DNA of 64,000 nt from an uncultured Helicobacteraceae bacterium (GTDB lineage: Bacteria; Campylobacterota; Campylobacteria; Campylobacterales; Helicobacteraceae). The DNA is taken from the NCBI GenBank assembly GCA_947176375.1, contig CAMWQM010000001.1, positions 1-64,000 on the forward strand. Direction: 5' to 3'. A program made the translations under genes and the position numbers. Shown piece after piece: positions 20,373-43,063 of the stretch (the stretch's first letter is position 1; each line of letters begins with the position of its first letter). The notes beneath the pieces are model-generated. The model saw only the letters and a program-made list of their open reading frames with translations. It searched no databases and was not told the DNA's origin.

Positions 20373-20412
20373 TTTAATAAATGAAAAAGCATACATTTAA
20401 AGAAGTGGCAAA

Positions 20413-22738: not shown

Positions 22739-22758
22739 AAGCAAAACAAGGCAGAAAT

Positions 22759-23826
22759 ATGTGGTTAATCATCTCACTTTTAGTTTTATCATTTTTAATT
22801 TTTTTTCATGAACTAGGACATTTTTTAATAGCGAGATTATTTGGTGTTAGGGTTGAGGTTTTTAGCATAGGTTTTGGTAAAAAACTTATAAGAAAAACAA
22901 TAGGCAACACAGAATATGCTATATCAGCAATTCCTCTTGGTGGCTATGTTAAAATGAAAGGGCAGGATGATTTAAACCCAATTTTAAAAAATAGTGATGA
23001 TGATAGTTTTAATACAAAAGCCCCTTGGAAAAAAATATGTATTTTATTTGCTGGAAGCGGAGCAAATATTTTATTAGCATTTTTGCTTTACATTATTATT
23101 GGGCTAATTGGGATAAATTCAGTCCTTCCTATCATTGGTGAAACATTAGAAAATTCGCCTGCTAGAAATGCTGGACTAATTGCTGGAGATAAAATAATAA
23201 AAATAGATTCAAAAGATATAAAAACTTGGAAAAATATAGTAGAAAAAATTAGCCAAAAACAAAACTCTATAAATATAAAATATGAGCGAAATGGAAATAT
23301 TTTTCAAACTACAATAACACCAGAGATTAAAGATAGTAAAAATATCTTTGGAGAGGATGTAAAACAAAGCTTTATAGGTATAAAAGCAAGTGGTGAAGTA
23401 GGAATTGTAAAATATAGTTTTAGCGAGATAATCCCTTTTGCATTTAATGAGACGCTTTATGCTGGAAAATTAATTCTCCTTGGAGTTCAAAAGCTAATCA
23501 CAGGAATCCTCCCAACAAGTGAGCTAGGAGGACCTATCGCAATAGTGCAGATAATCTCATCTGCCACAGATAGCGGAATGGTTGCGCTATTTGGTATAAC
23601 TGCATTAATCTCAATAAATCTTGGAATCCTAAACCTCTTTCCCATTCCAGCACTTGATGGAGGACACATCATCTTTAGCTTGTATGAGTGGATTACCAAA
23701 AAAGCATTAGATGAAAATATTATTTATAAACTGACACTCTTTGGCTGGGCACTACTTTTAGCTCTAATGGCACTTGGAATCTATAATGATATAAGTAGGA
23801 TTACGACTAAAACTCCGCTTCCATAA
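22759..23826 (+). CDS. rseP: RseP-type site-2 zinc metalloprotease
   Basis: This 355-aa intramembrane protease of the M50B group cleaves membrane-anchored proteins after a first site-1 cut. The zinc motif HELGH is at residues 17–21 in the first membrane helix. A PDZ domain follows (LENSPARNAGLIAGDKI), and the C-terminal FPIPALDGGHIIF helix supplies the third zinc ligand. The frame is open further upstream, but ATG at 22759 with AAGG about eight bases before it gives the normal N-terminus. It lies 20 bp after pgsA. Substrates cannot be inferred. Confidence 0.93.
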   Translation: MWLIISLLVLSFLIFFHELGHFLIARLFGVRVEVFSIGFGKKLIRKTIGNTEYAISAIPLGGYVKMKGQDDLNPILKNSDDDSFNTKAPWKKICILFAGSGANILLAFLLYIIIGLIGINSVLPIIGETLENSPARNAGLIAGDKIIKIDSKDIKTWKNIVEKISQKQNSINIKYERNGNIFQTTITPEIKDSKNIFGEDVKQSFIGIKASGEVGIVKYSFSEIIPFAFNETLYAGKLILLGVQKLITGILPTSELGGPIAIVQIISSATDSGMVALFGITALISINLGILNLFPIPALDGGHIIFSLYEWITKKALDENIIYKLTLFGWALLLALMALGIYNDISRITTKTPLP

Positions 23827-23845
23827 GCGTATAAATGGAGGAAAA

Positions 23846-24541
23846 ATGATAGATAAGAATTTGCAAGAAAAATTGAGAGCAAATCTAACTAAACTAATTG
23901 AAGAAATTGAGATTGAACGCTTAAAATACTCACCTCATCAAATTATCAAGCTAGTTGCAGTTTCAAAATACGCCTCAATAAATGAGATTATAGCTCTGTA
24001 TAATGTTGGACAAAGGGCTTTTGGTGAAAATAAAGTGCAAGATTTAAAACAAAAAATTGAGCTTTCAAATACATTACCATTGGAGTGGCATTTTATAGGA
24101 ACTTTGCAAGAAAATAAAATAAATCATCTTTTAAGTTTAAATCCATCACTTTTTCAAGCACTAGATTCTATAAAAATTGCAAATGCCTTGCAATCAAGAT
24201 TAAAAAGAGAAAATAAAACACTAAACTGCCTTTTGCAAGTAAATATATCAAATGAAACAAGTAAAAGTGGTTTTAGCGTGGAATCTGCCTTACAATCATA
24301 CGAAACCATAATGCAAACTTGCCCAAATATTAAGCTACAAGGTATTATGAGCATAGCAAGCAATACAAAAGATACAAAGACGATAGAATCTGATTTTAGA
24401 AAGGCAAAAGATATTTTTGATAAATTAAATAGCCTTGGAGCTAGAATTCTATCCTGTGGAATGAGTGATGATTATAAAATTGCAATTAGCAATGGTGCAA
24501 ATATGTTAAGAATTGGTTCTAAAATTTTTAATATTTGTTAA
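23846..24541 (+). CDS. yggS: YggS/PROSC family PLP homeostasis protein
   Basis: This 231-aa single-domain protein has the fold of bacterial alanine racemase's N-terminal barrel. It binds pyridoxal 5'-phosphate through K41 in LVAVSKYAS and helps buffer free PLP; no enzymatic reaction is known. Other family motifs are AFGENKVQDLKQK, WHFIGTLQENK, LLQVNISNETSKSGF and LSCGMSDDYKIAI, the last with phosphate-binding residues. It sits 19 bp after rseP with GGAGG upstream. The next gene, htrA, has its own 67-bp leader. Confidence 0.93.
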   Translation: MIDKNLQEKLRANLTKLIEEIEIERLKYSPHQIIKLVAVSKYASINEIIALYNVGQRAFGENKVQDLKQKIELSNTLPLEWHFIGTLQENKINHLLSLNPSLFQALDSIKIANALQSRLKRENKTLNCLLQVNISNETSKSGFSVESALQSYETIMQTCPNIKLQGIMSIASNTKDTKTIESDFRKAKDIFDKLNSLGARILSCGMSDDYKIAISNGANMLRIGSKIFNIC

Positions 24542-24608
24542 AATTACATTGATAATTTAAAATATTAATTCTATATTATCAATACAATGATTTTTTAAGG
24601 AGAAAATA

Positions 24609-26033
24609 ATGAAAATTTTATATTTTTTAATAATTCCATTTTTAGTATTCGCATTTAATTTCGAGGAATTACCAAATGTTTCAAATAGAGAAATTCCAAC
24701 ACAATCACAAAATACTATCAAATCATATAATAGTGCAATTAGTGAGGTGAAAAAAAGTGTAGTTAATATCTCTACACAGAAAAAAGTATCTAACAATATG
24801 ACAAATCATCCTATGTTTAGCGATCCATTTTTTCAGCAATTTTTTGGAGATTTATACCAAAATATGCCAAAAGATAGAGTTGAACGTTCGCTTGGGAGTG
24901 GAGTGATAATCTCAAAAGATGGTTATATTGTTACAAATAACCATGTGATTGATGGAGCAGATAAGATTCTAGTCTCACTTCATAATAATACAAAAAAAGA
25001 ATATGAAGCAAAAATCATTGGTAAAGACCCACGAAGCGATTTAGCAGTGATTAAAATAAATCAAAATAATCTTCCTTACGCAAAGCTAGGGAATAGCAAT
25101 GATTTAATGGTAGGCGATGTTGTGTTTGCGATTGGAAATCCTTTTGGTGTGGGTGAAAGCGTGACACAAGGTATTATCTCTGCTTTAAATAAAAGAGATG
25201 TTGGAATAAATGATTATGAAAACTTTATTCAAACAGATGCAAGTATTAATCCTGGGAATTCTGGTGGTGCTTTAGTAGATAGCAGAGGAGCATTGATTGG
25301 TATAAATACAGCTATATTATCACGCACTGGTGGAAATCACGGCATAGGATTCGCAATACCTTCAGATATGGTAAAAAAAATTACTACCACATTAATTGAA
25401 AAAGGAAGTATTGAGCGAGGATTTTTAGGAGTTGGGATTCAAGATGTTAGTGACAATTTATCAAATCTCTACAATGGAAAAAGTGGTGCTGTGATAGTAA
25501 GCCTAGATAAAGATTCTGCAGCAGCAAAAGCTGGAATCAAAGTGTGGGATTTAATTACAGCAGTAAATAATAAGCCGATTAATTCTGCTTCCGATTTAAA
25601 GAATATCATAGGTTCTTTTAGTCCAAATGAAGTTGTAGATATCACATACATAAGGAATAAAAAAGAATATAACACAAAAGTGAAACTAGATAAATCTAAA
25701 AATGATATAGAAACTAGTAGCAATAATCCTTCAAATAATAGTAACCAAAAAGGCTCTAATAGCACTGGCTTAAGCGTAGAAAATCTAACAAATCAGATTC
25801 GACAAATGTATAGAATACCTAGCAATTTTAATGGTGTAATAGTAAGTGAAGTGGTAGATAACAGCAAAGCTTCCAAAGCTGGATTTGAAAAAGGAGATAT
25901 AATCTCTCAAATAGAGGATATTACAATAAACAATGTAGCAGATTTTAATAATGCAATGAATAAATATAAAAACAAACCAAAGAGAATCTTAGTCTATCAA
26001 AGCACAGGCTCAAGGACTATTGTGCTAGATTAA
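24609..26033 (+). CDS. htrA: Periplasmic serine protease DegP/HtrA
   Basis: This 474-aa periplasmic or secreted chaperone-protease degrades misfolded envelope proteins; in H. pylori and Campylobacter the secreted form cleaves E-cadherin. A signal peptide covers about residues 1–16. The catalytic triad is H112 (TNNHVID), D144 (RSDLAV) and S218 (NPGNSGGAL). Two PDZ domains follow, around residues 265–355 and 385–470, separated by an N/S-rich linker. AGGAG precedes the ATG. Gene order after the pyrD block matches H. pylori. A long perfect palindrome lies 60 bp after the stop. Confidence 0.95.
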   Translation: MKILYFLIIPFLVFAFNFEELPNVSNREIPTQSQNTIKSYNSAISEVKKSVVNISTQKKVSNNMTNHPMFSDPFFQQFFGDLYQNMPKDRVERSLGSGVIISKDGYIVTNNHVIDGADKILVSLHNNTKKEYEAKIIGKDPRSDLAVIKINQNNLPYAKLGNSNDLMVGDVVFAIGNPFGVGESVTQGIISALNKRDVGINDYENFIQTDASINPGNSGGALVDSRGALIGINTAILSRTGGNHGIGFAIPSDMVKKITTTLIEKGSIERGFLGVGIQDVSDNLSNLYNGKSGAVIVSLDKDSAAAKAGIKVWDLITAVNNKPINSASDLKNIIGSFSPNEVVDITYIRNKKEYNTKVKLDKSKNDIETSSNNPSNNSNQKGSNSTGLSVENLTNQIRQMYRIPSNFNGVIVSEVVDNSKASKAGFEKGDIISQIEDITINNVADFNNAMNKYKNKPKRILVYQSTGSRTIVLD

Positions 26034-26092
26034 GAATCATAAATAGCTTTTAAATTAACTCTACAATTTTAAAATTGAATGATGATTATAAA

Positions 26093-26122
26093 ATCCCAAA
26101 TTAAGAGCTCTTAATTTGGGAT
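26093..26122. terminator. 30-bp perfect palindrome downstream of htrA
   Basis: Two exact 15-bp reverse-complement halves meet at GAGCTC with no spacer. It begins 60 bp after the htrA stop and is the likely end of that transcript, though the following sequence is not a pure T run. A 10-bp inverted repeat (AATCTAGCTT 26140–26149, AAGCTAGATT 26169–26178) follows and includes a T8 stretch in its loop. Confidence 0.45.
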
Positions 26123-26178
26123 AGTTATAAAAAGTTTAGAATCTAGCTTTTTTTTAAATATTAAACTGAAGCTAGATT

Positions 26179-27022
26179 AAAGGATCTTGATATTGATTCA
26201 AATCCTTTTTCCTCTACTTATCTAGATAAAATAATTTATAAAATATGAGGGCAAATTATTTTGCAGTTATTATGAAATATTTTTATATAAACCTAATTAA
26301 AAATCCATATTTAAAACTTTACTTTGATACTAAAATATTTCTATGCGACATTCTAATAATATAAATTCAACACTTATTAAAATGGGGAAGCAAGTCTATT
26401 AAAATTCCAATCTTAAACTTAATAAATACAAATACTTTAAATAACTTTAATAAACCTGCTGCATATATAGAAATTAAAATTATCATTTTAAAGCAAATTT
26501 TATGATTAATCTAAACTTATCAATAGCAAATTTATAGAGTATTTTTCTTTATTAAAGATAATTTTATTTTCAAATAATATTGGGGGGGGATAGAATTATT
26601 GTCATATGTTTATATAGCCATTTACATTTATTAGCCAAAAATTAAAATCTAAATAAATTACTTTAGAAATAGCTTTTTAATATTTCTACCATTTACTCTC
26701 ACAAAAAATACTATTAAGAGCTTACAAAAAAATACATTGCTAGAAATTTTAGAAATTTATACTTATATCAAATAAATAAAAATCGCTAACTATAAATAAA
26801 ATCTAGTCCAATCAATATTTTAAAATTAAAAAATATATATTTATCATAAAATGAAAATTATGGCACTTAAATTTTTGTAAATTTATTCCAATAATCTCAT
26901 TTTTTAAGCTTAAAGTAACTCTTTTGATTATATTAATAATCTTAAGTTAAGATTCTAAATTTGGATTATTAAAATAAGTTGTGGCTAAATATTTTTAGCT
27001 AAATTCTTTAGAATCTAAATGA
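26179..27022. other. Gene-free AT-rich stretch with an orphan G8 tract
   Basis: No intact gene is visible on either strand. A run of eight Gs lies at 26582–26589. On the minus strand an ATG shortly before it (MTIILS…) would read through into about 25 further codons if the run had seven or ten bases, but nothing recognisable is encoded. This is probably the relic of a phase-variable gene. Confidence 0.5.
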
Positions 27023-27043
27023 ATTCCACATTCAAAGTGGAAT
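27023..27043 (-). terminator. Terminator hairpin of the por operon
   Basis: ATTCCAC (27023–27029) and GTGGAAT (27037–27043) form a 7-bp stem with a 7-nt loop, about 32 nt after the porB stop. The minus-strand sequence that follows is T-rich but broken, so this is moderate support. Confidence 0.45.
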
Positions 27044-27074
27044 CTAAAACTATATTCTATTGTGTGTAAAGATT

Positions 27075-28019
27075 TTAAACCCTAGCTTCCTCTTTTCTTT
27101 GCAAATATTCCCATCTTTTATCCACATCTTTTTGGAATTGCTCTATTATATGCTCATTTTCTTTTTTGAAAAGATGTTTAAATCTCCCTTGTGCAGCCAA
27201 ATAATCACGCACAGGAATTACATTTTTAGGGCGATATGTGATATTGAGCTCCACTCCATTTACTATCTCAAACAATGGGAACACAAGCGAATCTACTGCT
27301 AAATCACTCACATCGATAGTCTTATTTGAATCAAACTTCCATTCTGTCGTGCAAGCACTCATAGCATTGATAAAAGTAGGTCCTTCTATGTCTATCGCTT
27401 TTTTGATTTTTTTATTCATATCTTTCCATTTATTAGGTGCTACTTGAGCCACATAAGGCGCTCCATGTGCCGCCATAATAAGTAAAATATCTTTCTTTTT
27501 TTCTTTTTTACCATAGCTTACATTTCCAGCAGGTGAAGTAGAAGTTGATGAGCCAAGCGGGGTTGAACCACTTCTTTGACCTCCTGTATTTGCATAAACC
27601 TCATTATCAAGACAAATATAAGTTATATCATGCCCTCTTTCAAAACAGCCACTAATCCACTGAAATCCAATATCATAAGTAGAACCATCGCCACCAAATG
27701 CTACAAATCTAGGCTTTTGTCCTGTATATCTGCCTTTTTTGGCTAAAGCTTTATACATTGCTTCTGCTCCTGCTATTGCAGTTGAGCTATTCTCAAATCC
27801 TATATGAATCCAGGGCACATCCCAAGAAGTATATGGATAAACTGCGGTTGATACCTCTAGGCAACCTGTTGAAGTTCCAAGTAAAATAGGAGCATCTGAA
27901 GCATTTAAAACCTCTCTAACAATTATTCCATGCGCACAGCCTGGACAAAGTAAATGCGAACCTTCAAATCTTTCTGCTGCTGTTGAAAACTGCTTTAAAT
28001 TCTTAATTTCTCTTGTCAT
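27075..28019 (-). CDS. porB: Pyruvate:ferredoxin oxidoreductase, beta subunit
   Basis: This is the thiamine-pyrophosphate-binding subunit of POR, which turns pyruvate and CoA into acetyl-CoA and CO2 with reduction of ferredoxin or flavodoxin. It is 314 aa. Visible motifs are CPGCAHGIIVREVL near the N-terminus, CLEVSTAVYPYTSW, the TPP/Mg motif FGGDGSTYDIGFQW and the conserved CLDNEVYANTGGQRSGSTP. Cysteines at CPGC and in SACTTEW fit the cluster ligands of beta subunits. It is the last gene of porCDAB, 9 bp after porA. This replaces pyruvate dehydrogenase in these organisms. Confidence 0.95.
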   Translation of the reverse strand: MTREIKNLKQFSTAAERFEGSHLLCPGCAHGIIVREVLNASDAPILLGTSTGCLEVSTAVYPYTSWDVPWIHIGFENSSTAIAGAEAMYKALAKKGRYTGQKPRFVAFGGDGSTYDIGFQWISGCFERGHDITYICLDNEVYANTGGQRSGSTPLGSSTSTSPAGNVSYGKKEKKKDILLIMAAHGAPYVAQVAPNKWKDMNKKIKKAIDIEGPTFINAMSACTTEWKFDSNKTIDVSDLAVDSLVFPLFEIVNGVELNITYRPKNVIPVRDYLAAQGRFKHLFKKENEHIIEQFQKDVDKRWEYLQRKEEARV

Positions 28020-28028
28020 TTTTTCCTC

Positions 28029-29252
28029 CTAATTAAAACCTATTTCTTTACCGCGAAGACCAATAAATTGCTGTGTGGGGTGCGTTAGCTTACCTGCTTT
28101 AGCATTGCTATCTAGCTGTTTATAAATATGCTCTAAATTTGCTTGTGTTAAATCTCTACCACCTAAACCATAAATATAGTTTGACAGAACAGGATGTTTT
28201 GTGCCTTCTAACTGATATATACACGCTGCTACTTCATTAAATAGCATTCCCATAGCACCAGCTGGAAGACTTCTATCAAGTGTAGCAATGGCTTTAGCAT
28301 TTTTAAGTGCTTCTCCTAGCTCTTTGTAAGGAAATGGGCGCAAAGTTCTAATAGAAACAACACCTGTTTTTAACCCCTGCTCTCTTATTTTTTTACTTGC
28401 TACTCTTGCAGATTCTACACTTGTGCCAAGTGCTACTATTATTAAATCTGCATCTTGCGCATCATAAGATTCTACGATATTGTATTTTCTCCCTGTTAAC
28501 TTAGCAAAATCACTAAATACTTCTTCAATCACAGATTTAGAATTCATAATTGCATTATGAAGCTGTGCTTTATGCTCAAAATGCCAATCTTCCTCTGTCT
28601 GTGATCCGTAAGTTACTGGTTTACTAAAATTTAGCATTGCATTATATTCTTTGTAATCACCTATAAATTTATAAGCCTCATCATCGTCTAATGGCATTAC
28701 ATTCTGTGCAGTGTGTGAGCAAATAAAGCCATCTTGATTGACAATAACAGGAATCCTAACTCTCAAATCCTCAGCAATCTTAAAGCCCATTAGATTAAAA
28801 TCATAAGCCTCTTGTGGATTGTAAGTACATAGGCTAATCCAGCCTGTATCTCTACTTAAATACATATCAGAGTGGTCCCCATTTACATTAAGTGGTGAAG
28901 CTAAAGCACGATTGACTAGATTTAGCAGTATTGGTAGTCTCATTCCAGAAGCTTGATACAAAACCTCTACCATTAAAGCGAAACCTTGAGAGCTTGTAGC
29001 TGTCGCTACGCGTCCTCCAGCAGCAGAAGCACCTACACAGCCACTCATAGCAGCGTGTTCAGATTCTACCATTACAAATTCACCATCTACATAACCATTT
29101 GCCACAAAGCTACCATAATTTTGCACAATAGGAGTTGAAGGAGTAATAGGATATGCTGCTACGACATCAATTTGTGCTTGTCTCATTGCTTGACTTGCTG
29201 CCATATTTCCGTCCCAAACCTCTATTTTGTGTAATTCCATTTTTAATGCCAT
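28029..29252 (-). CDS. porA: Pyruvate:ferredoxin oxidoreductase, alpha subunit
   Basis: This 407-aa subunit carries the pyrimidine-binding part of the TPP site and the domain II/III region. Characteristic stretches are AYPITPSTPIVQNYG, VESEHAAMSGCVGASAAGGR, TATSSQGFALMVEVLYQAS and DREVP-like SLDRSLPAGAMG. It forms the heterotetramer with PorB, PorC and PorD in the cytoplasm. It starts 10 bp after porD. The AAGGAG-type site is clear in front of the start. Confidence 0.95.
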   Translation of the reverse strand: MALKMELHKIEVWDGNMAASQAMRQAQIDVVAAYPITPSTPIVQNYGSFVANGYVDGEFVMVESEHAAMSGCVGASAAGGRVATATSSQGFALMVEVLYQASGMRLPILLNLVNRALASPLNVNGDHSDMYLSRDTGWISLCTYNPQEAYDFNLMGFKIAEDLRVRIPVIVNQDGFICSHTAQNVMPLDDDEAYKFIGDYKEYNAMLNFSKPVTYGSQTEEDWHFEHKAQLHNAIMNSKSVIEEVFSDFAKLTGRKYNIVESYDAQDADLIIVALGTSVESARVASKKIREQGLKTGVVSIRTLRPFPYKELGEALKNAKAIATLDRSLPAGAMGMLFNEVAACIYQLEGTKHPVLSNYIYGLGGRDLTQANLEHIYKQLDSNAKAGKLTHPTQQFIGLRGKEIGFN

Positions 29253-29262
29253 AACTTTCTCC

Positions 29263-29661
29263 TTACTTATTCTTTTCTTCTTTTTTTGGCCAAGATTTTA
29301 ATATTTCATCATTATCTTCATAATCACTATACATAAGCAATGACTTTGGATTCGTAGGGCATACGCTAGAGCATAAGCCACAACCTTTGCAATGCACATA
29401 GTCAATCCCACTCATCTTTTCATTTCTAGCTAGAATCGAACTATCAGGGCAATATACCCAACAATTAAAGCAATTTATACAATGCTCTGCATTAAATACA
29501 GGCTTATCAACTCGCCAATGAGCAACACTAGCTACATAAGAACTATTTTTTGTATAATCCCTATTCTCCTGATGTTTATCTAAAATATCTTTATTAGCGG
29601 AACCTTCTAGTGGAAATAACACAGAGCCTATTTCAAATTCATTCCAACCTTTATAATCCAT
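29263..29661 (-). CDS. porD: Pyruvate:ferredoxin oxidoreductase, delta subunit (2[4Fe-4S])
   Basis: This 132-aa electron-transfer subunit has two ferredoxin-type cysteine motifs: CINCFNCWVYCPD and CKGCGLCSSVCPTNP. It passes electrons from the TPP centre to the outside acceptor. It is longer than a plain ferredoxin because of an N-terminal extension of about 60 residues, normal for Helicobacter PorD. It sits 17 bp after porC and 10 bp before porA. Confidence 0.95.
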   Translation of the reverse strand: MDYKGWNEFEIGSVLFPLEGSANKDILDKHQENRDYTKNSSYVASVAHWRVDKPVFNAEHCINCFNCWVYCPDSSILARNEKMSGIDYVHCKGCGLCSSVCPTNPKSLLMYSDYEDNDEILKSWPKKEEKNK

Positions 29662-29678
29662 ATTTTCTCCTTATAGGT

Positions 29679-30239
29679 TTAATTTACTTCATCATAAGCG
29701 CGTTTAATTGCTAACATATTTTGGTCTATGACTTTTTGTGATAATTTCTTACCTAACACTTTCTTAAAAGATTCTAAGAAAAAGTCTAGCTCAAGAATCC
29801 CAGAAATCTTTATAAATGCACCAAGCATAGGTGCATTTGGAATAGGTCTTCCTAAAGTCTCTTGAGAGATTCTAATGCAATCTAGGACAAAAACTTGTTT
29901 GCCTTTTAGCTCTGGCTTTTTCTCTAACAGCTCTTCTTTGCTAAAATGCGTTGTTATAATATATTTTGTCTCTTTTTTCTCAAATTCACAAATATTTGTA
30001 ATGAAAGTTAGCCCAGGGTCAATTACCAGAACATAATCTGGGCTCATAAACTTCTCGTGATTTAGTATATCATTATCATCAATTCTATTATACGCAGTCA
30101 TTGCAGCACCTCTTTTAGCAGAGCCATAAAATGCAAATGCTTGCACTTTTTTGCCTGTTTGAGATACCACATCAGCCAAACCTTTTGCTCCTGTTACAGC
30201 CCCCTGTCCTGCACGGCTATGCCACCTAATCTCTAGCAT
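29679..30239 (-). CDS. porC: Pyruvate:ferredoxin oxidoreductase, gamma subunit
   Basis: This 186-aa subunit is the CoA-binding-side gamma domain. It starts MLEIRWHSRAGQGAVTGAKG, the typical gamma-subunit glycine-rich opening, and includes AFYGSAKRGAAMTAYNRI and NAPMLGAFIKISG. It is the first gene of the operon. Upstream are a TATAAA-like -10 element and two copies of an 11-bp direct repeat, so the operon promoter is likely here. Often called porG in H. pylori annotation. Confidence 0.93.
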   Translation of the reverse strand: MLEIRWHSRAGQGAVTGAKGLADVVSQTGKKVQAFAFYGSAKRGAAMTAYNRIDDNDILNHEKFMSPDYVLVIDPGLTFITNICEFEKKETKYIITTHFSKEELLEKKPELKGKQVFVLDCIRISQETLGRPIPNAPMLGAFIKISGILELDFFLESFKKVLGKKLSQKVIDQNMLAIKRAYDEVN

Positions 30240-30252
30240 TTATCACTCCCAT

Positions 30253-30289
30253 TATTGTAAAATTTTATAATGAGCATCTATTGTAAAAT
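30253..30289 (-). promoter_or_regulatory. Promoter region of porCDAB with paired direct repeats
   Basis: TATTGTAAAAT occurs at 30253–30263 and again at 30279–30289, a 26-bp period, 14 bp upstream of the porC start. Between them, on the minus strand, ATTATAAAAT gives a -10-like box. Phased direct repeats over a promoter suggest a regulator site. Confidence 0.35.
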
Positions 30290-31562
30290 ATAAGCACTTA
30301 AAAAATAATAATGATGTGAATTTAAGTTAACTTAAATTTTCTAAAATGCACAATTTGGAATCTTATAAAATCTAGAATCTTAGACAAATCTTGTGCCATA
30401 GTCCCCGCATTTATTGACAAAATATCAAAGTAATGTAGATAATTTTAATACGGAATATATGAAGTTTTATGTGGGAGGGCATAGCTTTTTTAAGTACACA
30501 AGCCAAACATAATGATAGAAATTTTTAAATATAATTATTCAGTTCCTGTCCTCTCTAAACCACATCTAATCTCTCACATTAGAATCTTCATAGGTGAATA
30601 AGATTATTTCTGCTTGTGGCAAGTGTTTTCTTATACTTTCTAGGTATTTTGGAGTATTTACTTTGTCAATTGCACTTTGTGATTATTGATATATTTTTAG
30701 ATTCTATCACTCATCTACTCCTAATTTTGACACAAACTTTAATAAATAAAAACTATAAATTATTTTACTCGCTAGTCTTACTACTTTTTTAGATTCTATC
30801 ACTTGCCTTATTATTTTTATTTGGAATCTATTATCAACTCTATTCCTATTTAGAATTACTATTTTCAAAATACTTATCATTATTTACTCTAATATATTCC
30901 GCTACAACATTTTGAGTGCCATATTCAAAACATTTAAAGTTTGTTATTTCATTATGTTCCATTACGGTAATATCACCTTTTTATACTCGTTTACATTTAT
31001 TTTACACTATATTCTGTGATAATCGTTATTTATGGAGAACCTATTTTTAGATAACTTCCTCTTCTCTAACCATTTAAACTAAATCATTTTTATCAATCAA
31101 AACATAGCCATATTTTAAGGCTTTCATTAAGCACTACAACACCGCCATCTAACCAATAGCCCTAAAAATTTTCAATCACAAACTTTATTTGCTTTATCAA
31201 AAGATTGCCATTTAAAATCAATAGCTCATTATCATTATTTAATAATCAATAAAAAAATAAAGAGGTGCAAATATTTTTCACTTTGTTTCTCCTTGCACTT
31301 CTATTACACTACATTTAGGACAAAGATTTTTTAGGATATCTTTAGTTGATATTTTCTTGCCACTCTTTTTTGGTTCTACGATATTTATTTATCTCTTTTT
31401 TTGGAGGTTTAGACATAATCAAGCCTTTTAAAATATTTATTATTCTTGTAATTTTTTATGACAGCCTTTTTAAACAACTATTTTTAAAAATTACCATTTA
31501 AATTTTAAAATTTTTATTCTAGTTTGATAAAATTGCCAAATATTTTAAATAAGGTTTTTTTA
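30290..31562. other. 1.3 kb of decayed coding fragments
   Basis: No intact gene is present. On the plus strand, a frame near 30430–30510 reads YQSNVDNFNTEYMKFYVGGH. On the minus strand, about 30560–30690 reads VNTPKYLESIRKHLPQAEII then LFTYEDSNVRD before a TAG. Around 31040–31240 (minus) are NNDNELLILNGNLLIKQIKF and GYWLDGGVVVLNESL pieces separated by stops. Families are not recognisable. Confidence 0.5.
31278..31416 (-). pseudogene. Small decayed hypothetical gene
   Basis: From an ATG at 31416 with GGCTTGAT upstream, the frame reads MSKPPKKEINKYR. A shift leads to KKSGKKISTKDILKNLCPKC and ends EVQGETK at a TGA (31278–31280). The CPKC pair suggests a former zinc-binding small protein. One frameshift breaks it. 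Confidence 0.4.
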
Positions 31563-32444
31563 ATGCTCTCACATCCATTTTCACACACGCCGATATATGA
31601 GGATTCTAACATTCTTATTCTAGGATCTTTTCCTTCAATAATCTCAAGGGAAAGAGGCTTTTACTATGCAAATACTAGAAATAGATTCTGGAATCTTGTG
31701 AGAGAGATCTTTAGACTAGATTCTAAAATAGTGGAATCTAAAAATATAAAAAATCTGCCCTGTGCATCTCAAAATAGCCGCAAATCAAAGGCTTTAAAAA
31801 AGAATCTTAATGATTCTAAAAATATGGATATATGTTTAAATAATTTTAACAACCAACTTTCTACTACGCAAGCAAAACTATCATTTCTTAAGACTAATCA
31901 TATCGTTCTTTGGGATATAGCAAAAGAATGTGAGATTAAAAACTCTGATGATTCCACGCTTAAAGCGCTATCTTTTAATGATATTATTTCATTGCTAAAA
32001 AGCTCAAACATTAGCACAATTGTACTAAATGGCACTAAAGCTACAAATTTATTCATCAAATATTTAAAATCATATAAAATTGAAATCAAGCTTATAAATA
32101 CAGATTCTAGCCCATATCAAAATATCTATTTTACTAATTTTAAGTCGAATGCAAAGTTAGATTCCACACTTACATTTATGGAATCTAAAATTAAAGCCAA
32201 AATAGAGGCAGAATCTATAATATTAGAATCTAAACTTGCAAAATCATCGCATTTTAAAAATTTGAATTCTAAAACTTCATATTCTAAATCCTCGCACTGC
32301 AAAGTTTTTACACCCTCGCCAAAATTAACAAAAATATTAAAAAGAGAAATTAAAATTCTATCTTTTCCATCGACAAGCCCTGCAAATGCTACATTTAGCT
32401 TTGAGAGACTGCTAAAGTGCTGGAGAATTCTCAAAGATATTTAA
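31563..32444 (+). CDS. DNA-deoxyinosine (hypoxanthine) glycosylase, UDG superfamily, with expanded inserts
   Basis: Removes deaminated adenine (hypoxanthine) from DNA. The N-terminus, HPFSHTPIYEDSNILILGSF then PSIISRERGFYYANTRNRFW, and the C-terminal SFPSTSPANATFS followed by a WR motif match the hypoxanthine-DNA glycosylase branch of the uracil-DNA glycosylase fold. Typical members have 160–190 aa; this one has 293. The extra length is two S/K/N-rich inserts, about residues 65–105 and 205–255. Thirteen GATTC/GAATC sites lie between 31602 and 32230, mostly in or near these inserts. The frame is open from a TTG at 31524, but ATG at 31563 follows AAGG at good spacing. It appears intact. Confidence 0.75.
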   Translation: MLSHPFSHTPIYEDSNILILGSFPSIISRERGFYYANTRNRFWNLVREIFRLDSKIVESKNIKNLPCASQNSRKSKALKKNLNDSKNMDICLNNFNNQLSTTQAKLSFLKTNHIVLWDIAKECEIKNSDDSTLKALSFNDIISLLKSSNISTIVLNGTKATNLFIKYLKSYKIEIKLINTDSSPYQNIYFTNFKSNAKLDSTLTFMESKIKAKIEAESIILESKLAKSSHFKNLNSKTSYSKSSHCKVFTPSPKLTKILKREIKILSFPSTSPANATFSFERLLKCWRILKDI

Positions 32445-32741
32445 GCAATAAAGATTTTAAAAATATAAATATTGATTAAAGTAATTTCAAAAGAATGACA
32501 AAAAATCAAGCTTAAAAAACATAAAATCTTACATACAGATGGATTTTAAAAACTCAACAAACAGGATCAAAATTACTAAAATTATTTAATCTTATTTTTA
32601 AAATCTTATAATTAGTAAAATTCTTTAAAAATTATAAATTTAGCAAATTAGCATAAATTCTAAATAAAACAATTTTAGATGTTAAGCCCCATATTAGCAT
32701 TAATAAATAGATTCTTACTTTGAACTTATAAGTTTTCATAG

Positions 32742-33843
32742 CTATTTATTTTTTGCTTTTCTAAACATTGAAAAGTCTATATATAGCTTAAGATTTAATA
32801 TTCTTATTCTAAAAATTCCTCTCTTTTTTGCAAACTCAAATATCGGAGCAAAAGGAATGATGGTCTTAAATTTCACATACAAATCCCCGCCTTTGTATTT
32901 ATCAAACATTTCTTTATATTTATAGATGGAATCTACCCATTGGCTAAAATAATTTGTCTGTGCTAAAATTATACACCATTCTTGCCATTTGATAATATTA
33001 AAGTCTTTCCATGGCTTTTTTACTCCTGCGTAATGCACTTGGATTGGGTAATTTAGTGCATATTCTATATCTTCCTTGCTCCACGAGGCATTGTTTTTTT
33101 TCTCATCAATATCAAAGTTACTCCAAAAATATGTGCTAACCATACCATTTTTACTAAGCTTTTTTATATGTGGATAGCACACCATATTAATAACATCTTG
33201 TTCTGGCTGCAAAAGCCTATCTATATTATTTTCACAATATTCTAAAAATTTAGATTCTATGTTATCCTGTCTCATTTTTGCTAGATTATATATCAAAAAT
33301 CCCCCACCGATAGTGTTAATCTTATCTCTCTCCTCTTTGTTCCATTTTAGCTCATATGTTTTAGCAAATTTTCTTAAAGGACAATTACTATTTAGCACTG
33401 GAGCATCATAGCCACCTATATAGTTGCCACCCCCCCCCATTTTCAAACTTATCAAACTCCACTGATATATCGCCTTGCCATAGGACATCTACATCGGTTA
33501 CTATCATTTTGTCATATTGCGGAAAGCTGGAGGCAACGCTTAGCTTATAAAACATATCTTTAGAAAAATGTGCTCTACTTTTCAATTTCTCCCATAAATC
33601 ATCATAAAATCCTCCTTTGTTTATAAATTCCAAACTGGCATTAGGGAAAATAGCGATAGTTTGCTTTAATTTTTCTTGTGAATCTTTACTAATATTATCG
33701 CTATGCAGGACATAAAGCTTGTAGAAATAATTTTTATTAGCATACTTTAGCATAGAGTAGAATGATACAGCGGCTGGCAAGCAGTAATTTTCATCAAAGC
33801 AATGCATAATAGGGATAATAGGAAGATTAGAGATGTTTTGCAT
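32742..33843 (-). CDS. Phase-variable GT8 family glycosyltransferase, OFF at G9
   Basis: Two overlapping minus-strand frames make one gene. The 5' part (from ATG 33843) has IPIMHCFDENYCLPAAVSFY and the GT8 metal motif MIVTDVDVLWQGD. It runs into a nine-base G tract on the coding strand (33430–33438) and stops shortly after. The 3' part continues with GGYDAPVLN, INTIGGGFLIYNLAKMR, QDVINMVCY and HYAGVKKPW, the conserved GT8 C-terminal motifs. Eight or eleven bases would fuse them into about 366 aa. GT8 enzymes of the LgtC/RfaJ type add galactose or glucose to LPS. ATG 33843 has GGAG eight bases before it, so the longer upstream extension is not used. In the present state the enzyme is truncated after the DxD motif. 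Confidence 0.85.
33430..33438 (-). repeat. C9/G9 contingency tract in the GT8 glycosyltransferase
   Basis: Nine consecutive Cs on the plus strand (Gs in the gene) at the junction of the two reading frames. The 3' frame requires eight or eleven. Confidence 0.9.
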
Positions 33844-34532
33844 TAGATTGGCTCCATTTGGGTAAATTAAAACACGATTATAGCATATAGCAATACAAAC
33901 TATGCAAAAATTTAAAACAACAAAATTAAATAACAAAATCCTAAAATTGTGGAATCTAAATACTAAAATTTGTTTTATTGGTGACTAATAGTAGGTAGAT
34001 TTTTATGTGATTATGCCCAAGCTCTTGATTAATGATAAGTTTGTTATTTATAGTTAAAATTATTAATAGAATTAATAATTAAATATTATTTAGTATAAAG
34101 AGTAAGACTTAAGCTACAAAAACCCACTTGACTAATTTTAAACTTGATTTCCAACCAAAAAGATTGAATTTAGATATAATTTTGCCAAAGGCTTTCTACT
34201 ATATTTTCATAGTAAATCTTAATTTATTTGAACTTGCCCCAGTCTTGCGATGGCATAAACTATAACAGAACCCAAAAAATTATAATCTTTAAACCTCACA
34301 AAACAATAGAGAAATAAGTTTGAATTATTTTTGACAGATAGACAAAATTATTACACAAATTTTGCAATCCAAACATTAAAGATTTATTAAAAGTAAAATA
34401 TTATGACAGATAAAAAAGAGGTTTTAAGCTTTGTAATTAATTTTTGCAGAGATAATTCTATTTACTAAAAATAAATACAAAATCAGTAAATTAAAACTTA
34501 TTAAAAATTAAGAAATATGTTTGAAGAATATA
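33844..34532. other. Gene-free AT-rich region
   Basis: About 690 bp between the GT8 gene and tRNA-Ser. A short minus-strand relic at about 34208–34262 reads GSVIVYAIARLGQVQIN before a TAA, resembling the tail of a membrane protein. No complete gene or RNA is seen. Confidence 0.5.
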
Positions 34533-34623
34533 TGGCGGACAGGGAGGGATTCGAACCCTCGGTAATCTTGCGACTACGCATCCTTAGCAGGGATGTGGTT
34601 TAAGCCAACTCACCCACCGGTCC
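34533..34623 (-). tRNA. tRNA-Ser (anticodon GCU)
   Basis: The 91-nt minus-strand sequence folds as a class II tRNA with a long variable arm. The anticodon stem CATCC/GGATG encloses CTGCTAA, anticodon GCT, reading AGC/AGU. The T arm is GAGGG TTCGAAT CCCTC. CCA is encoded (34533–34535). The acceptor stem, GGACCGG against CCTGTCC, has one C–U mismatch at pair 5–68. The discriminator is G, as expected for serine. Confidence 0.93.
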
Positions 34624-34809
34624 AAAATTTATTTCAAAATAGTAAATAAAAGCGTTATTCTATCAAAAAAAAATCAAATCACATAATTTTTTGTAAAAAA
34701 TATACATTTTAGTAATATAAATATAATACTTTTATAATATCTTTTTGGTATTTATTAAAGTATTTTTTACTATTATTTAGCATTATTTTACAAAATAAAG
34801 GTGGTGAAA

Positions 34810-35808
34810 ATGGATTTTATAAATGATATAAAGAATAGAGCAAAACAGAATCTAAAAACGATAGTTTTACCAGAAACTAGCGATATTCGCACTATTGAAG
34901 CAGCAGCAAAGATTTTGCAAGAGGGATTTGCCAAACTCATACTTCTAGGAGACAAAGATAAAATATTAGGAAATAATGCAAGTTTAGATAAAGCAAAAAT
35001 TATTAATCCAAAAGAAAGTGATTTGATTGAAAAATATATTGATATGTTTATGGAACTACGCTCACATAAAGGTATGACAAAAGAAAAAGCGAGAGATTTA
35101 TTGCTAAATGACACTCTTTATTTTGGAGTAGCATTAGTAAAAGATAAAGAGGCTGATGGAATGGTAGCAGGAGCTATAAACTCCACTGCGAATGTCCTAC
35201 GCGCCGCATTGCAAATTGTAGGAACTGCAAAAGATACAAAACTAGTTTCTAGTATTTTCTTTATGGTGGTGCCAGAGACTCCTTTTGGATTCCAATATAA
35301 AGGAAGTGGGATCTTTGCTTTTAGCGATTGTGCATTAGTGCAAGAACCAAACTGCAATGAATTAGCACAAATTGCAATTTCAAGCGCAAAAACTTTCACG
35401 CAAATAACAGGAGAGGAGGCAAAAGTCGCATTATTAAGCCATTCAACTCGTGCTAGTGCCAAGCATTGCAAAATCGATAAAGTTTGCTCTGCACTAGATG
35501 TGGTAAAAGAGCTAAATCCGAATCTGCAAATAGATGGAGAATTACAGCTTGATGCAGCAATTGTGCCAAGTGTGGGTAAATCAAAAGCACCAGATTCTAG
35601 CATTGCAGGAAATGCAAATGTGCTAATTTTTCCAGATATTGACGCAGGAAATATAGGATATAAATTAGTACAAAGATTGGCTAAAGCAGAGGCTTATGGA
35701 CCGCTTACTCAAGGTATGGCACAGCCTATTAATGATCTAAGCAGAGGTTGCAATAGTGATGATATAGTGGGAACCGTTGCCATTACAGCTTTACAAGCAA
35801 ATAATTAA
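34810..35808 (+). CDS. pta: Phosphate acetyltransferase
   Basis: Interconverts acetyl-CoA and acetyl phosphate; together with AckA it makes ATP from POR-derived acetyl-CoA or activates acetate. It is a short, single-domain form of 332 aa (class I catalytic domain only). It has KTIVLPETSDIRTIEAAAKI, GAINSTANVLRAALQIVG, FGFQYKGSGIFAFSDCALV and SHSTRASAKH. Two upstream GTG codons (34801, 34804) are in frame, but AAGG at 34798–34801 suits ATG 34810. A TATAAT box lies about 80 bp upstream. ackA follows after 15 bp. Confidence 0.95.
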   Translation: MDFINDIKNRAKQNLKTIVLPETSDIRTIEAAAKILQEGFAKLILLGDKDKILGNNASLDKAKIINPKESDLIEKYIDMFMELRSHKGMTKEKARDLLLNDTLYFGVALVKDKEADGMVAGAINSTANVLRAALQIVGTAKDTKLVSSIFFMVVPETPFGFQYKGSGIFAFSDCALVQEPNCNELAQIAISSAKTFTQITGEEAKVALLSHSTRASAKHCKIDKVCSALDVVKELNPNLQIDGELQLDAAIVPSVGKSKAPDSSIAGNANVLIFPDIDAGNIGYKLVQRLAKAEAYGPLTQGMAQPINDLSRGCNSDDIVGTVAITALQANN

Positions 35809-35823
35809 AATAAAGGAGATAAA

Positions 35824-37023
35824 ATGGATATATTAGTAATAAATTGTGGGAGTTCATCACTAAAATATCAATTAATAAATATAACTACAAAAGAAATCCT
35901 AGCATCTGGAATATGTGATAGAATAAACCTTGATGGCAGTATTTTAAAATATAAATCAAAAGATAAAAAAATAGAGCAAAATTTGCCTATGCCAGATCAT
36001 AAAAGTGCGATAGGTTATGTATTTGACGCATTAACTAATAAAGAATATGGTGCAATATCTTCACTAAATGAAATCAAAGCAATAGGGCATAGAATAGTGC
36101 ATGGTGGAGAGCATTTTGTAACTTCTACTTTGGTAAATGATGATGTAATTGAAAAAATAAGAGATTATAGTGATCTAGCACCACTTCACAATCCAGCTCA
36201 TGTGATAGGACTAGAGGCTTGCAGGTATTTAATGCCATACACTCCTATGGTTGTGGTATTTGATACTGCATTTCACCAAACTATCGAGCCAAAAGCTTAT
36301 TTGTATGCCTTACCTTATGAATGGTATGAGAAATATAAGATTAGAAAATATGGATTCCACGGCACAAGCCACAGCTATGTAAGCAAGAGAACGGCTGAAT
36401 ATTTAGGACTTGATATAAATAACTCTAAAATTATCACTTGTCATTTAGGAAATGGCTCGTCAATTTGTGCGGTAAAAAATGGCAAAAGTATAGATACGAG
36501 TATGGGACTATCTCCGCTTGAGGGCATTGCAATGGGAACTAGAAGCGGTGATTTAGACCCAGCAGTGTTGCAATATATTGCAAAAAAGGAGAATATAAAC
36601 ATTGATGAAATTTTAAACATTTTGAATAAAAAAAGCGGGGTGCTTGGAATCTCAAAGCTATCAAGCGACTTTAGAGATTTGCTTAAGGCTGAGGGTGAGG
36701 GAAATGAATTAGCAAAACTAGCTAGGAGAGTTTTTGCATATCGAGTAGCAAAATATATTGGCTCTTATATGGCTGCGATGAATGGTGTAGATGCGGTGGC
36801 ATTTTGTGCAGGAGTTGGTGAGAATGCTGTATATATAAGAGGAATGATAGTCGAACATCTCGGCTTCCTAGGAGTTAGATTAGATGAAAATATAAATGTC
36901 AATACAATAGGCACAGAAGCTGTTATCTCAACCCCAGATTCCAAAGTAAAAGTTTGTGTCATTCCAACGAATGAAGAACTAGTAATCGCACAAGATACTT
37001 ACAATATAGTTTCAAAATTGTAG
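35824..37023 (+). CDS. ackA: Acetate kinase
   Basis: Transfers phosphate between acetyl phosphate and ADP. It is 399 aa with the ASKHA fold. N-terminal INCGSSSLKYQL binds phosphate; HRIVHGGEHF, DTAFHQTI, KYGFHGTSHSYVSKR, HLGNGSSICAV and MGTRSGDLDPAVLQY are the conserved acetate kinase blocks. A strong AAAGGAGAT precedes the ATG. It forms a two-gene operon with pta, and a hairpin 37 bp after the stop ends it. Confidence 0.97.
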   Translation: MDILVINCGSSSLKYQLINITTKEILASGICDRINLDGSILKYKSKDKKIEQNLPMPDHKSAIGYVFDALTNKEYGAISSLNEIKAIGHRIVHGGEHFVTSTLVNDDVIEKIRDYSDLAPLHNPAHVIGLEACRYLMPYTPMVVVFDTAFHQTIEPKAYLYALPYEWYEKYKIRKYGFHGTSHSYVSKRTAEYLGLDINNSKIITCHLGNGSSICAVKNGKSIDTSMGLSPLEGIAMGTRSGDLDPAVLQYIAKKENINIDEILNILNKKSGVLGISKLSSDFRDLLKAEGEGNELAKLARRVFAYRVAKYIGSYMAAMNGVDAVAFCAGVGENAVYIRGMIVEHLGFLGVRLDENINVNTIGTEAVISTPDSKVKVCVIPTNEELVIAQDTYNIVSKL

Positions 37024-37059
37024 AATAATCTCTAAAATGCAAGGTATGGCAAAATAGCA

Positions 37060-37093
37060 TAGCATTAATTAGATATCTTTTTAATTAATGCTA
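37060..37093 (+). terminator. Terminator of pta–ackA
   Basis: TAGCATTAATTA (37060–37071) and TAATTAATGCTA (37082–37093) form a perfect 12-bp stem with a 10-nt loop. The following bases are only partly T-rich (AAAGTTTATA). Confidence 0.55.
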
Positions 37094-37527
37094 AAAGTTT
37101 ATACGAATTAAAAATAAAAGAATGATGTTAAGTTTGATAGAATCTTTGGAAGTATAAATAATAAATTATTAAAATGATAAATTCTAAGTTTAGTTGTATA
37201 GAGTTTGTAAAAATTAAAATATGGAATATAGTTTTTAGGATTAGAGTAATTTTATCACCATTTTTTATATTTTATATCTTAATGTATTTATTAAATTTGT
37301 TTAAGGATTATTTTAGCCTGTAAGAAAAATATTTTGGGTTAAATGTATTTTAAAAATTAAATTTTATCAAAGCCTTATTTGCATAAAACAAATTATATTT
37401 AGCAAACATCTTTGTATCAATCAATAAAGCAATTACAATTTTTTAAGTTCTAAAATACGCCTAGCCAAACTTTAGGCTTTTAAAACTATGCTCAATTTAT
37501 TTTAACTATTGCCTATGTTTTGCTTGA
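37094..37527. other. Gene-free AT-rich region
   Basis: About 430 bp between the ackA terminator and the convergent motE gene. I see no gene, RNA or strong repeat in it. Confidence 0.5.
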
Positions 37528-38058
37528 TTATTCCTCAATTTCAAATGGAGGTCCCTTTTTTAGCACTTCTGTTAGTTTGGCAGCTTTTTGCGAATCCATT
37601 TTAGATAGAATCTTGCCTATATCTTTAGAATCCATTGAGAATAATATCTCTGCTGCCTGATTTAGCGGCATATTGTCTATAATAGCACCAGCTTTAGAAT
37701 CTTTCATTTTAGAGTAAGTTTGCGAAATTTTCTCATTCTTTTTATTATCAATTTGTGCTAATATCTCTTCATTTTTTTTGATTAACTCTCTAATTTCTTC
37801 TTCTTTATTTTTTGCTTCCTTTAGCAAAGATTCCACCTTTTGCTCTTGGATTTTTAATTCATCTAATCTTTTATTATTAAGATTCTGCTGTTGGCTATAA
37901 AGTGAGCTTATAATCCTCTTTTGCTCCTCAATCTCAGCTAATTCATTTTGTATTTCCTCTTTACGAAGCTCAAAAATTTTATTGCAATTTATCACAGCAC
38001 TCTGCTCTGCACTAGTCACACCAAATGCAACCAAACCAAAAATAATTAATCTTAACAA
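37528..38058 (-). CDS. motE: MotE-like periplasmic flagellar chaperone
   Basis: This 176-aa exported protein has a signal peptide over residues 1–17 (MLRLIIFGLVAFGVTSA), a long coiled coil (about residues 30–115, rich in E/K/Q) and a C-terminal MgtE-N-like helical domain containing AGAIIDNMPLNQAAEILFSM and DIGKILSKMDSQKAAKLTEV. In H. pylori the matching protein, next to the FliJ-like gene and purA, is MotE, which helps MotC form the disc around the motor. The same three-gene order is present here: purA, fliJ-like, motE, with a 9-bp gap to the FliJ-like gene. Confidence 0.85.
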   Translation of the reverse strand: MLRLIIFGLVAFGVTSAEQSAVINCNKIFELRKEEIQNELAEIEEQKRIISSLYSQQQNLNNKRLDELKIQEQKVESLLKEAKNKEEEIRELIKKNEEILAQIDNKKNEKISQTYSKMKDSKAGAIIDNMPLNQAAEILFSMDSKDIGKILSKMDSQKAAKLTEVLKKGPPFEIEE

Positions 38059-38067
38059 AAAATCTCC

Positions 38068-39773
<1,706 letters not shown>

Positions 39774-39996
39774 TTAAATATTGCAAAAATAGGGTGATAT
39801 AAAATTTAATCTAACTTTGATTTATCGCATTGTTTAAACTAGCTCTACATTATTATGAGCATATATTCTAGTGATTTTTAGCCACATTAGAATCTAAAGC
39901 TAAATACAAAGTCTAGCTTATCATAAATTTTAGTATCTAATTTAATAGATTTTTTAAAAAAATAAAATATCATTTCAATTTTTGAGTGAGGGAAAA

Positions 39997-41617
39997 ATGG
40001 CAAAGCAAAAATCAAATAAATCAAAAGAAGCAAAATCTTTGCAAACAAAGCAAAACATTACACATAAAAGTGGTAAAGATTTTGCACTCTCTAAAAATGT
40101 ATCACTAGATTCTATACATTCTAGTAATTTGGCAGAATCTACTTTCCAATCCACAAATCAAAGCTTACTACAAAAAAATCTTTGTTTAAATCACTCATAC
40201 AAAATAAATAAAACTATTCCCATAGATAAACTAATTGATAGAATCTTGCAAGGTGATAGCTTAAAGTTATTAAAACAGATTCCAGATTCTAGCATTGATT
40301 TAATATTTGCTGACCCACCTTATTTTATGCAGGTTAGCGGAGTGTTAAAGCGACCAGAGGGATGTGATTTTAGCGGTTGTGATGATACGTGGGATAGCTT
40401 TAGGGATAATGAGGATTATAATGCCTTTAGCAAGACGTGGCTAAAGGAGTGCTTTAGGATTCTAAAACCAAATGGTAGCATTTGGGTGATAGGCTCTATG
40501 CAGTGTATTTATAGTATTGGTGGGCTTATGCAAGAGCTTGGCTTTTGGTTTATCAATGATGTAGTTTGGCAAAAGAGCAATCCAATGCCAAATTTTCACG
40601 GAACAAGGCTAAATAACTCACATGAAACACTTATATGGGCGACAAAGAGTAAAAAATCAAAATATACTTTTAATTACAAGACTGCAAAAGAGCTAAATAA
40701 CGAGATAGTAGGCTTTAAGGACGGAGAGAGGCGACAGCTAAGCAGTGTATGGCAGCTTCCTGTTTGCAATGGAAATGAGAGACTAAAAGATAGTATCGGT
40801 GATAAAATCCATAGCACGCAGAAGCCAGAATCCTTGCTATATAGGATAATTGCCATTAGCTCTAAAATGGGAGATTATTGTGCTAGACCCATTTGGTGGG
40901 ACGATGACCACAGCGGCAATGGCAAAGAAACTAGGCAGGCACTACATTATGCTAGAGAGAGGAAAAATACATAAAAGCAGGGCAAAAGAGGCTAGAGCTT
41001 GTTAGCTTTAAAGATTCACCTATTGCTAGGGCAGAGTTTGACACAAAGCCTCTCAAAGTAACTTTAAGCGAGATGATAGAAAATGGATTTTTAAGAGAAA
41101 ATGAAGTTTTTTATCTAAAAGAATTTATTAGAAATTTTAATGTGGAATTTAGCATTGCACATTCTAGCACTGCAAAATACATAAATCCAAATAATAAAGA
41201 TTCTAAAAATGTAAAACCTAGCTCCAAAAATAACTCATTAACCACAAAAATGGAATCTAAAAAGACAAAAAAATCCCTAAAGATTCTAAAATAGAATCTA
41301 AAAATCAAAAAGAAAACAAACCAATATCAAATTTAAATACCAAAGATTTACAAGATTTAAAATATTTTGTATCGCAAGATTTTGAAAACCCAAAACTCAC
41401 AAAAGATGGCAAACTTCTCTATCAAAATCAAAAATATGATATACATAGCCTTGCAGCTTTGCTAAAACAGACAAATGCAACAAATACAAAGCAAGCAAAC
41501 ACAGAGCGGATAAAAACAAAAAGACTAAATGGCTTTAAATATTGGTGTGTTTTAAAAGAGGACAAATTTGTCTTGTTAGATACGATTAGAGAGGAATTTA
41601 GACAAATAAAGATATAA
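39997..41617 (+). pseudogene. HinfI/CcrM-like (GANTC-type) adenine DNA methyltransferase, three frameshifts
   Basis: The 5' frame carries DLIFADPPYFMQ, SIWVIGSMQCIYSIGG, KSNPMPNFHGTRLNNSHETL and HSTQKPESLLYRII, the order and motifs of beta-class CcrM/HinfI enzymes. One extra T near 40876 breaks the frame; one base later in phase, IVLDPFGGTMTTAAMAKKLG supplies the SAM-binding motif. An extra G near 40961 shifts it again, then YIKAGQKRLELVSFKDSP follows. A lost A in the A7 run 41267–41273 causes a third shift, after which a RAMA-like C-terminus runs to TAA 41615–41617. ATG 39997 has GAGGG upstream. The N-terminus has a 70-residue S/K/N-rich extension. GANTC specificity is inferred from family resemblance. 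Confidence 0.82.
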
Positions 41618-42142
41618 AAATAAAAGCTACAAACAAGGCAAAATGATTTAAAATTTAGCAGATTTTGCAAAGCTTATTATTATCAAATGAAACTAATTTT
41701 TCATATTTTGACCTTTAAAACAAGTTATGAGAGTGAATCTAAAATATAGATCCTAATAATTTGGATAATTTGATTTTTAAAAAGTTAGTAGATTCTAAAA
41801 ATTACAAAAAACTAAATGAATAGTAAAATGGAGCAAATCTAAAAAACAAGAGAAACTAAAACTTGGAATACAATAAGCTCTAAAATAAATTATTCAAAAA
41901 TTATTATCTGATTTAGTAATAAAACAATATTCTCTTAATAATCTAAATAATTTTTCTAAAAATCTGTCTTTACAAACAACCTTAATTGAATCTAGCTTTA
42001 AAAATCATATTTAAAATATTTGATTAATCTTGCGAATCTAAAAGATAAAATTTTGTATATCTCGCTTCAAAATCTATCTAAAAATTTTAAAAGGATTTGA
42101 GAGGACATCAATTATCTATAAAGATTCACAATTTATTTTAAA
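41618..42142. other. Gene-free AT-rich region
   Basis: About 525 bp between the methyltransferase relic and a small secreted protein on the other strand. It contains GATTC/GAATC sites but no recognisable gene, RNA or long repeat. Confidence 0.5.
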
Positions 42143-42511: not shown

Positions 42512-42544
42512 TTCTCCTTAAAAATTAATATAGATTAAATTATA

Positions 42545-42991: not shown

Positions 42992-43063
42992 TTTTGCTCC
43001 TTAAATATTATGGAATAAACTTTGCTTTGAGAGATAAAATTGTATCAAAATGTGAGATTTAAA

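Follow-up and report, generated by a model that had tools for sequence, protein, structure and literature searches.

The stretch of DNA analysed here, a window of 64,000 nucleotides, carries a gene for a DNA-deoxyinosine/uracil-DNA glycosylase in which the pentamer GANTC reaches its highest density (Table 1). An exact recount returned 13 sites in the 629 bp of this cluster, the number counted by hand in the original prediction. For such a length, about 1.6 sites would be expected from dinucleotide shuffles of the window and 3.0 from the window's own mean density (Poisson P 1.7e-5); no other 629 bp of the window are as dense (P 0.013 after scanning). Seven of the 13 sites lie in two linker expansions of the protein (about aa 76-111 and 191-244) that are missing in family homologs, which align only at residues about 9-75, 112-190 and 245-306. 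The idea that one mobile repeat gave rise to such motif-rich inserts in genes was rejected after both inserts of the glycosylase had been compared by BLAST with 464 kb of the genome: the matches listed spanned 15-23 bp, roughly the motif and its flanks. The window also encodes an O6-methylguanine DNA methyltransferase whose two domains are joined by a long linker of low complexity that resembles the linker expansions of the glycosylase.

Table 1 Coordinates of the features recorded in the window
Feature	Position	Strand	Description
Whole window	1..64000	.	299 GAWTC and 7 GASTC, coding and intergenic
Probable defence island	156..8373		Type III methylase (N6_N4_Mtase) and ResIII helicase flanking three genes: SLATT_4 membrane protein, SMODS nucleotidyltransferase (CBASS-like), RhuM-family protein
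Split glycosyltransferase genes	10487..12041 and 32742..33936		Families 2 and 8, split over frames
DNA-deoxyinosine/uracil-DNA glycosylase gene	31524..32444	+	306 aa; TIGR04274 93.8 bits, PF03167
Site cluster	31602..32230	.	13 GAWTC; 11 are RGAWTCY, exceptions at 31812 and 31950
Full consensus palindrome TAGATTCTA	31717..31725	.	
Full consensus palindrome TAGAATCTA	32224..32232	.	
CcrM/M.HpyAIV-like (GANTC) methyltransferase gene	39982..41617 (end approximate)	+	NF050803 296.6 bits (aa 85-304); second half broken by frame changes, first open frame spanning 39982-40974, remainder in other frames
O6-methylguanine DNA methyltransferase gene	55528..56205		

Across the whole window, 306 GANTC sites were counted against 158.0 ± 11.7 expected from dinucleotide-preserving shuffles, a number reached in 0 of 100 shuffles. 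The excess originally ascribed to GANTC is thus real window-wide, but its N is wrong: GAATC and GATTC are enriched (299 observed versus 123 expected under an order-1 Markov model), whereas GACTC and GAGTC are depleted (7 versus 37, same model). This depletion is non-specific and common in unrelated loci as well, and we therefore used it solely to exclude GANTC as the word. The two contexts named beforehand, TAGATTCTA and GGAATCTA, were correct, and in the window GAATC is preceded by A or G in 82% of cases and followed by T or C in 92%.

We then took k-mer statistics from 464 kb of the genome that carries the window (G000) and counted patterns genome-wide. The signal is no local cluster, the outcome on which the original prediction would have foundered, as the best 9-mer, TAGAWTCTA, has 1,110 copies over the full 1.80 Mb versus 20 for the reversed control pattern. 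Similarly, AGATTCYA occurs 3,535 times versus 70 for its control and is split evenly between the two strands (1,766 + 1,769 versus 32 + 38), so that the strand bias that had been proposed as a check is absent. A strand bias of the Chi type was likewise rejected, AGATTCYA being equal on both strands genome-wide and in each 200-kb block of a second genome, G080. Under an order-2 Markov model, the top 8-mers of the 464 kb were AGATTCTA (598 versus 54), AGAATCTA (497 versus 54) and AGATTCCA (340 versus 30). AGATTC/AGAATC and their extensions rank at or near the top among 6- to 9-mers in every motif-rich genome sampled, but not in the motif-free genome G009.

The true motif is YRGAWTCYR, a palindrome with a sharp GAWTC core and graded flanks. 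Almost all core changes among the single-base variants of TAGAATCTA bring the count to 0.3-1.7x expectation (the exception is one at 2.7); at the outer positions Y, R, Y and R are tolerated with graded loss. The same holds in G030, a genome of about 2.7 Mb that carries 16,584 AGAWTCT sites, or one per 160 bp or so (the load in stretches L029-L035 is extreme), where the full word is 80x over-represented and its core variants stand at 0-1.9. One-mismatch forms are accordingly over-represented when the mismatch lies in the flanks and not when it lies in the core. The core being palindromic, asymmetry is confined to the flanks, which also differ between genera as dialects (G versus A at position -1, and the extended form TTATAGAATCTA in G030). 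Spacing varies between genomes: sites are placed near randomly in G000 (mean 268 bp, gap CV 1.03) and are clustered in G030, where RGAWTCY has a mean spacing of 134 bp and gaps of 7, 9, 15 and 18 bp are favoured. Close pairs (AGATTCTatAGAATCT) in the latter suggest that some copies spread via local duplication.

A codon-pair effect had been listed as one origin of the excess. In coding DNA of G000, RGAWTCY is 3.6x over synonymous-codon shuffles made within each gene, and all reading frames contribute (GGAATCT in frame 0, for example, 123 versus 12.9). Between genes the excess over Markov expectation is larger still, 8x in G000 and 15x in G030. The excess thus persists under synonymous shuffling, involves all three frames and is greater in intergenic DNA, which rules out a codon or peptide effect; the excess over both the synonymous shuffles and the intergenic Markov expectation indicates a signal at the level of DNA.

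By its proteins and named relatives, the organism belongs to the Campylobacterota and is closest to Helicobacter. To define the distribution of the word, we surveyed 121 genomes of the family, using the ratio of AGAWTCT to its reversed control. Ten of the 13 genera are enriched, with median ratios of 3.6 to 15 (8-15 in g1, g5, g8, g10, g11 and g13), and g2 and g9 are weak (about 2). In the remaining genus, g6, the motif is absent in all 34 genomes (ratio 0.25-1.4, median 0.7). This genus is apparently the gastric (stomach) lineage, as judged from G009, which consists of one contig of 1.5 Mb and has 39.5% GC over the parts that were read. For loci of named organisms, the ratio is 10.3x in Helicobacter sp. 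MIT 05-5294, 4.4x in H. marmotae and 0.5x in the gastric H. suis. Genomes from other families of the order lie mostly near background. A literature search for the forms of the word found no such iterated sequence described in Helicobacteraceae, and no experiment on DNA uptake in these species came to light; in a motif-discovery paper that covers H. hepaticus, only its Shine-Dalgarno pair is given (PMC5217627).

Maintenance of the word was assessed in one pair of close genomes, G068 and G080, which diverge by 2.4% over the 84 kb compared. Of 334 reverse-complement 5-mer pairs, GAATC/GATTC has changed least (loss 0.049 versus a median of 0.101; binomial P 2e-4), and turnover of RGAWTCY is 0.095 versus 0.189 ± 0.058 for permuted 7-mers. 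Positions 6-8 away from the motif diverge above average; a conserved word in permissive surroundings is also the pattern of the Neisseria DUS, whose conserved sites lie in permissive places (PMC2397512). Although sites are few, GAWTC outside the R..Y context appears equally conserved (10/230 versus 27/619, both directions counted), and the core GAWTC may therefore be the unit under maintenance. In a simple balance of mutation and drive, the 8-fold excess observed would entail loss at 0.29 of the neutral rate; the measured value, 0.45, is of the right order of magnitude.

In two mobile elements of G080 the motif is sparser. A prophage at about 795-847 kb of contig C1 (L164-L167) has genes for terminase, portal, major head protein, endolysin and primase; its terminase is 59-63% identical to those of related prophages from H. 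cinaedi, H. canis and H. equorum. The G080 prophage carries 1.77 RGAWTCY per kb versus 3.8-4.0 in its flanks, an enrichment of 4.2x versus 8.0-8.5x, and an island with a relaxase and TrbL in the same genome is also low (3.7x). Four recorded prophages, from H. cinaedi, H. canis, H. equorum and H. himalayensis, reach 2.6-5.7x, and an H. pylori phage 0.6x. Since prophages of other hosts are still enriched, the depletion of mobile DNA is only about twofold. The motif density of mobile DNA follows that of the host but trails it.

Taken together, these results show that the word is real, genome-wide, distinct from GANTC, not driven by codons, maintained, and family-wide with g6 as a clean exception. 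In most Helicobacteraceae, selection or molecular drive would act on the DNA itself to maintain it. The explanation that we favour, to which we give about an even chance, is that YRGAWTCYR is an iterated word for self-recognition, sustained by drive or selection, that works like a DNA uptake sequence or another mark of self-DNA. A sequence-specific DNA-binding protein would favour the entry or recombination of fragments carrying the word, and natural transformation would spread new copies and replace lost ones. An uptake signal, listed originally as an alternative, is the best-supported reading, if still an unproven one. Conservation, dialects, the lower density in the G080 prophage and island, and ComEC (PF03772) in 112 of 112 good genomes speak for it. 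Against it count the presence of ComEC in motif-free g6 as well, the enrichment that prophages of other hosts still show, the equal conservation of GAWTC outside the R..Y context, the close pairs in G030 and the palindromic form of the word.

The main reading of the original prediction, in which the excess is a by-product of CcrM/HinfI-type methylation of GANTC, now appears extremely improbable. A CcrM-like gene does lie in the window, and intact homologs of it occur in relatives, but the window copy is frame-broken and we judge that it is not the cause of the motif; the depletion of GASTC likewise does not fit. Outside g6, genomes with a strong homolog (E<=1e-70) have a higher median ratio (13.5 versus 5.4, P 0.002), a link that shared ancestry could produce. 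Comparing relatives with and without the methyltransferase showed that the enzyme is neither necessary nor sufficient: strong homologs occur in 19 of the 34 motif-free g6 genomes, and no GANTC methyltransferase homolog was found in G078 (23x), G014 (15.7x) and G024 (13.8x), which rank among the richest in the motif. The motif without the enzyme in these three genomes and the enzyme without the motif in g6 refute GANTC methylation as sole cause. In agreement with this, the same mark goes with very different counts in H. pylori, where GANTC is 99.6% methylated by hp1352 yet has just 5,570 motif positions (PMC3936762), and in H. typhlonius, where it is fully methylated at 20,546 positions (PMC4705304). 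A broader role for methylation, as proposed for the cyanobacterial HIP1, would have a methyltransferase and methyl-dependent repair recognise the sites and thereby create or keep them. The palindromic core, the tolerance of deviations at outer positions only, as in HIP1 (PMC4390886), and the full GANTC methylation of H. typhlonius speak for this explanation, which we nevertheless consider rather unlikely. C5 methyltransferases (PF00145), like GANTC methyltransferases, are missing in G014, G024 and G078; no D12 (PF02086) or N6_N4 (PF01555) methyltransferase common to the six motif-rich genomes compared (G000, G014, G024, G030, G078 and G080) was found; and Vsr occurs in only 1 of 121 family genomes. 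A C5-methyltransferase link, a shared D12 enzyme as cause and VSP-type repair were rejected on these respective grounds, which remove the simple HIP-type and VSP-type explanations, with a reservation as to the specificities of type I and IIG enzymes. Moreover, the methylome of H. typhlonius, with 5mC outside its scope, lists no RGAWTCY-specific mark besides GANTC (PMC4705304), and the sole methyltransferase-like protein shared by the motif-rich genomes has a degenerate catalytic motif.

Two further explanations dispense with methylation. The word could be the binding site of a nucleoid, Chi-like recombination or segregation protein that needs many chromosomal sites, in keeping with the near-random spacing in G000, the conservation, and the fact that prophages carry the word too. 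However, known Chi and segregation motifs are strand-biased, unlike AGATTCYA, and the density in G030 seems beyond such a need; we hold this role to be unlikely. Alternatively, the word might have no function and simply mutate slowly through a context-dependent mutation or repair bias, as the lower loss rate of GAWTC whatever its flanks would allow. Loss is reduced only about 2.2-fold, alone too little for an 8- to 80-fold excess, and the absence of the word from g6 and its twofold rarity in a resident prophage also argue against such a bias, which is very unlikely.

An iterated word that works in DNA uptake or retention would call for a protein that reads it, and one candidate emerged from the six motif-rich genomes. 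Each encodes, in single copy, an N6_Mtase-matching protein of 555-581 aa (about 565) that is 40-82% identical over its full length across the six, C-terminal half included. It is a fusion in which an HsdM-like domain (PF02384, 118-124 bits) precedes a single specificity-like domain, the latter matched by Specificity_I models, with a profile match to Esub1 8vsq at positions 406-556 (E 2e-5). The loci (L324, L325, L326, L327, L321 and L336) are conserved across genera in differing surroundings, and no restriction subunit was seen within 1 kb on either side of the gene. The fusion was not found in motif-free G009, where the sole counterparts are type I HsdM-like proteins at about 25-30%. Its motif I reads NPCYGxGS and its catalytic motif IV, NPPI or NPPL in all six proteins, is degenerate, active enzymes having NPP(F/Y/W). 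As a lead, a dimer of two such proteins, each contributing one recognition domain, would read a palindrome, and the fusion may be the reader of the word. Against this, half-sites of type I-like systems are usually further apart than in RGAWTCY, which makes the geometry tight, and the link to the motif is a correlation only (6/6 motif-rich versus 0/1 motif-free genomes). The full proposal, that an orphan HsdM/half-HsdS fusion that has lost catalysis reads a YRGAWTCYR code governing DNA uptake or retention in non-gastric helicobacters, and that the gastric lineage is without both, is an unlikely one. If true, the lack of reader and code would fit unselective DNA uptake by the gastric lineage.

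The word resembles the DUS of Neisseriaceae and the USS of Pasteurellaceae in its thousands of copies on both strands, in coding and non-coding DNA, in the conservation of copies amid permissive surroundings, in its genus-level dialects and in the presence of comEC. DUS and USS are rare in recently acquired DNA; here the density is halved in a single prophage and a single island of G080, but the four prophages of other hosts are still enriched. The word differs in being shorter, in its palindromic core, whose one-mismatch variants are not over-represented, and in its occurrence in a family from which we found no such sequence described. To our knowledge, none of the DUS or USS known so far is palindromic. 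As the word is a palindrome and its uptake role a proposed one, we do not claim membership of the DUS/USS. With HIP1 and the alternate HIPs of cyanobacteria it shares a palindromic form, genome-wide occurrence, similar or higher density and tolerant outer positions, but it is AT-rich and no cognate methyltransferase common to its carriers was found. As for CcrM and M.HpyAIV (hp1352), GAWTC lies inside GANTC and is hence methylated wherever the enzyme exists, yet the distribution of the enzyme does not track the motif and GASTC is depleted. RAATTY of Campylobacter jejuni, marked by methylation through CtsM, is a short, palindromic, degenerate word used for self-DNA discrimination in natural transformation. 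It comes from a bacterium of the same order and is likewise short and palindromic, but is not strongly over-represented (1.3x in the one Campylobacter locus counted, L059).

Few groups (Neisseriaceae, Pasteurellaceae and cyanobacteria) are known to carry iterated self-DNA words. The natural on/off contrast between sister genera, with no recognisable shared methylase, allows a direct test of what HIP-type palindromes do. In Helicobacter pylori, DNA uptake shows no sequence preference; the word could bear on this unselective uptake, its relatives being possibly selective. In these genomes, GANTC counts are no evidence for CcrM-type regulation.

Among other features of the window, GATC (58 versus 401), CATG (38 versus 278), GGCC (6 versus 124) and GTAC (28 versus 133) are strongly avoided, the usual mark of past restriction systems. 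The two split glycosyltransferase genes are possibly phase-variable or decayed surface-sugar genes.
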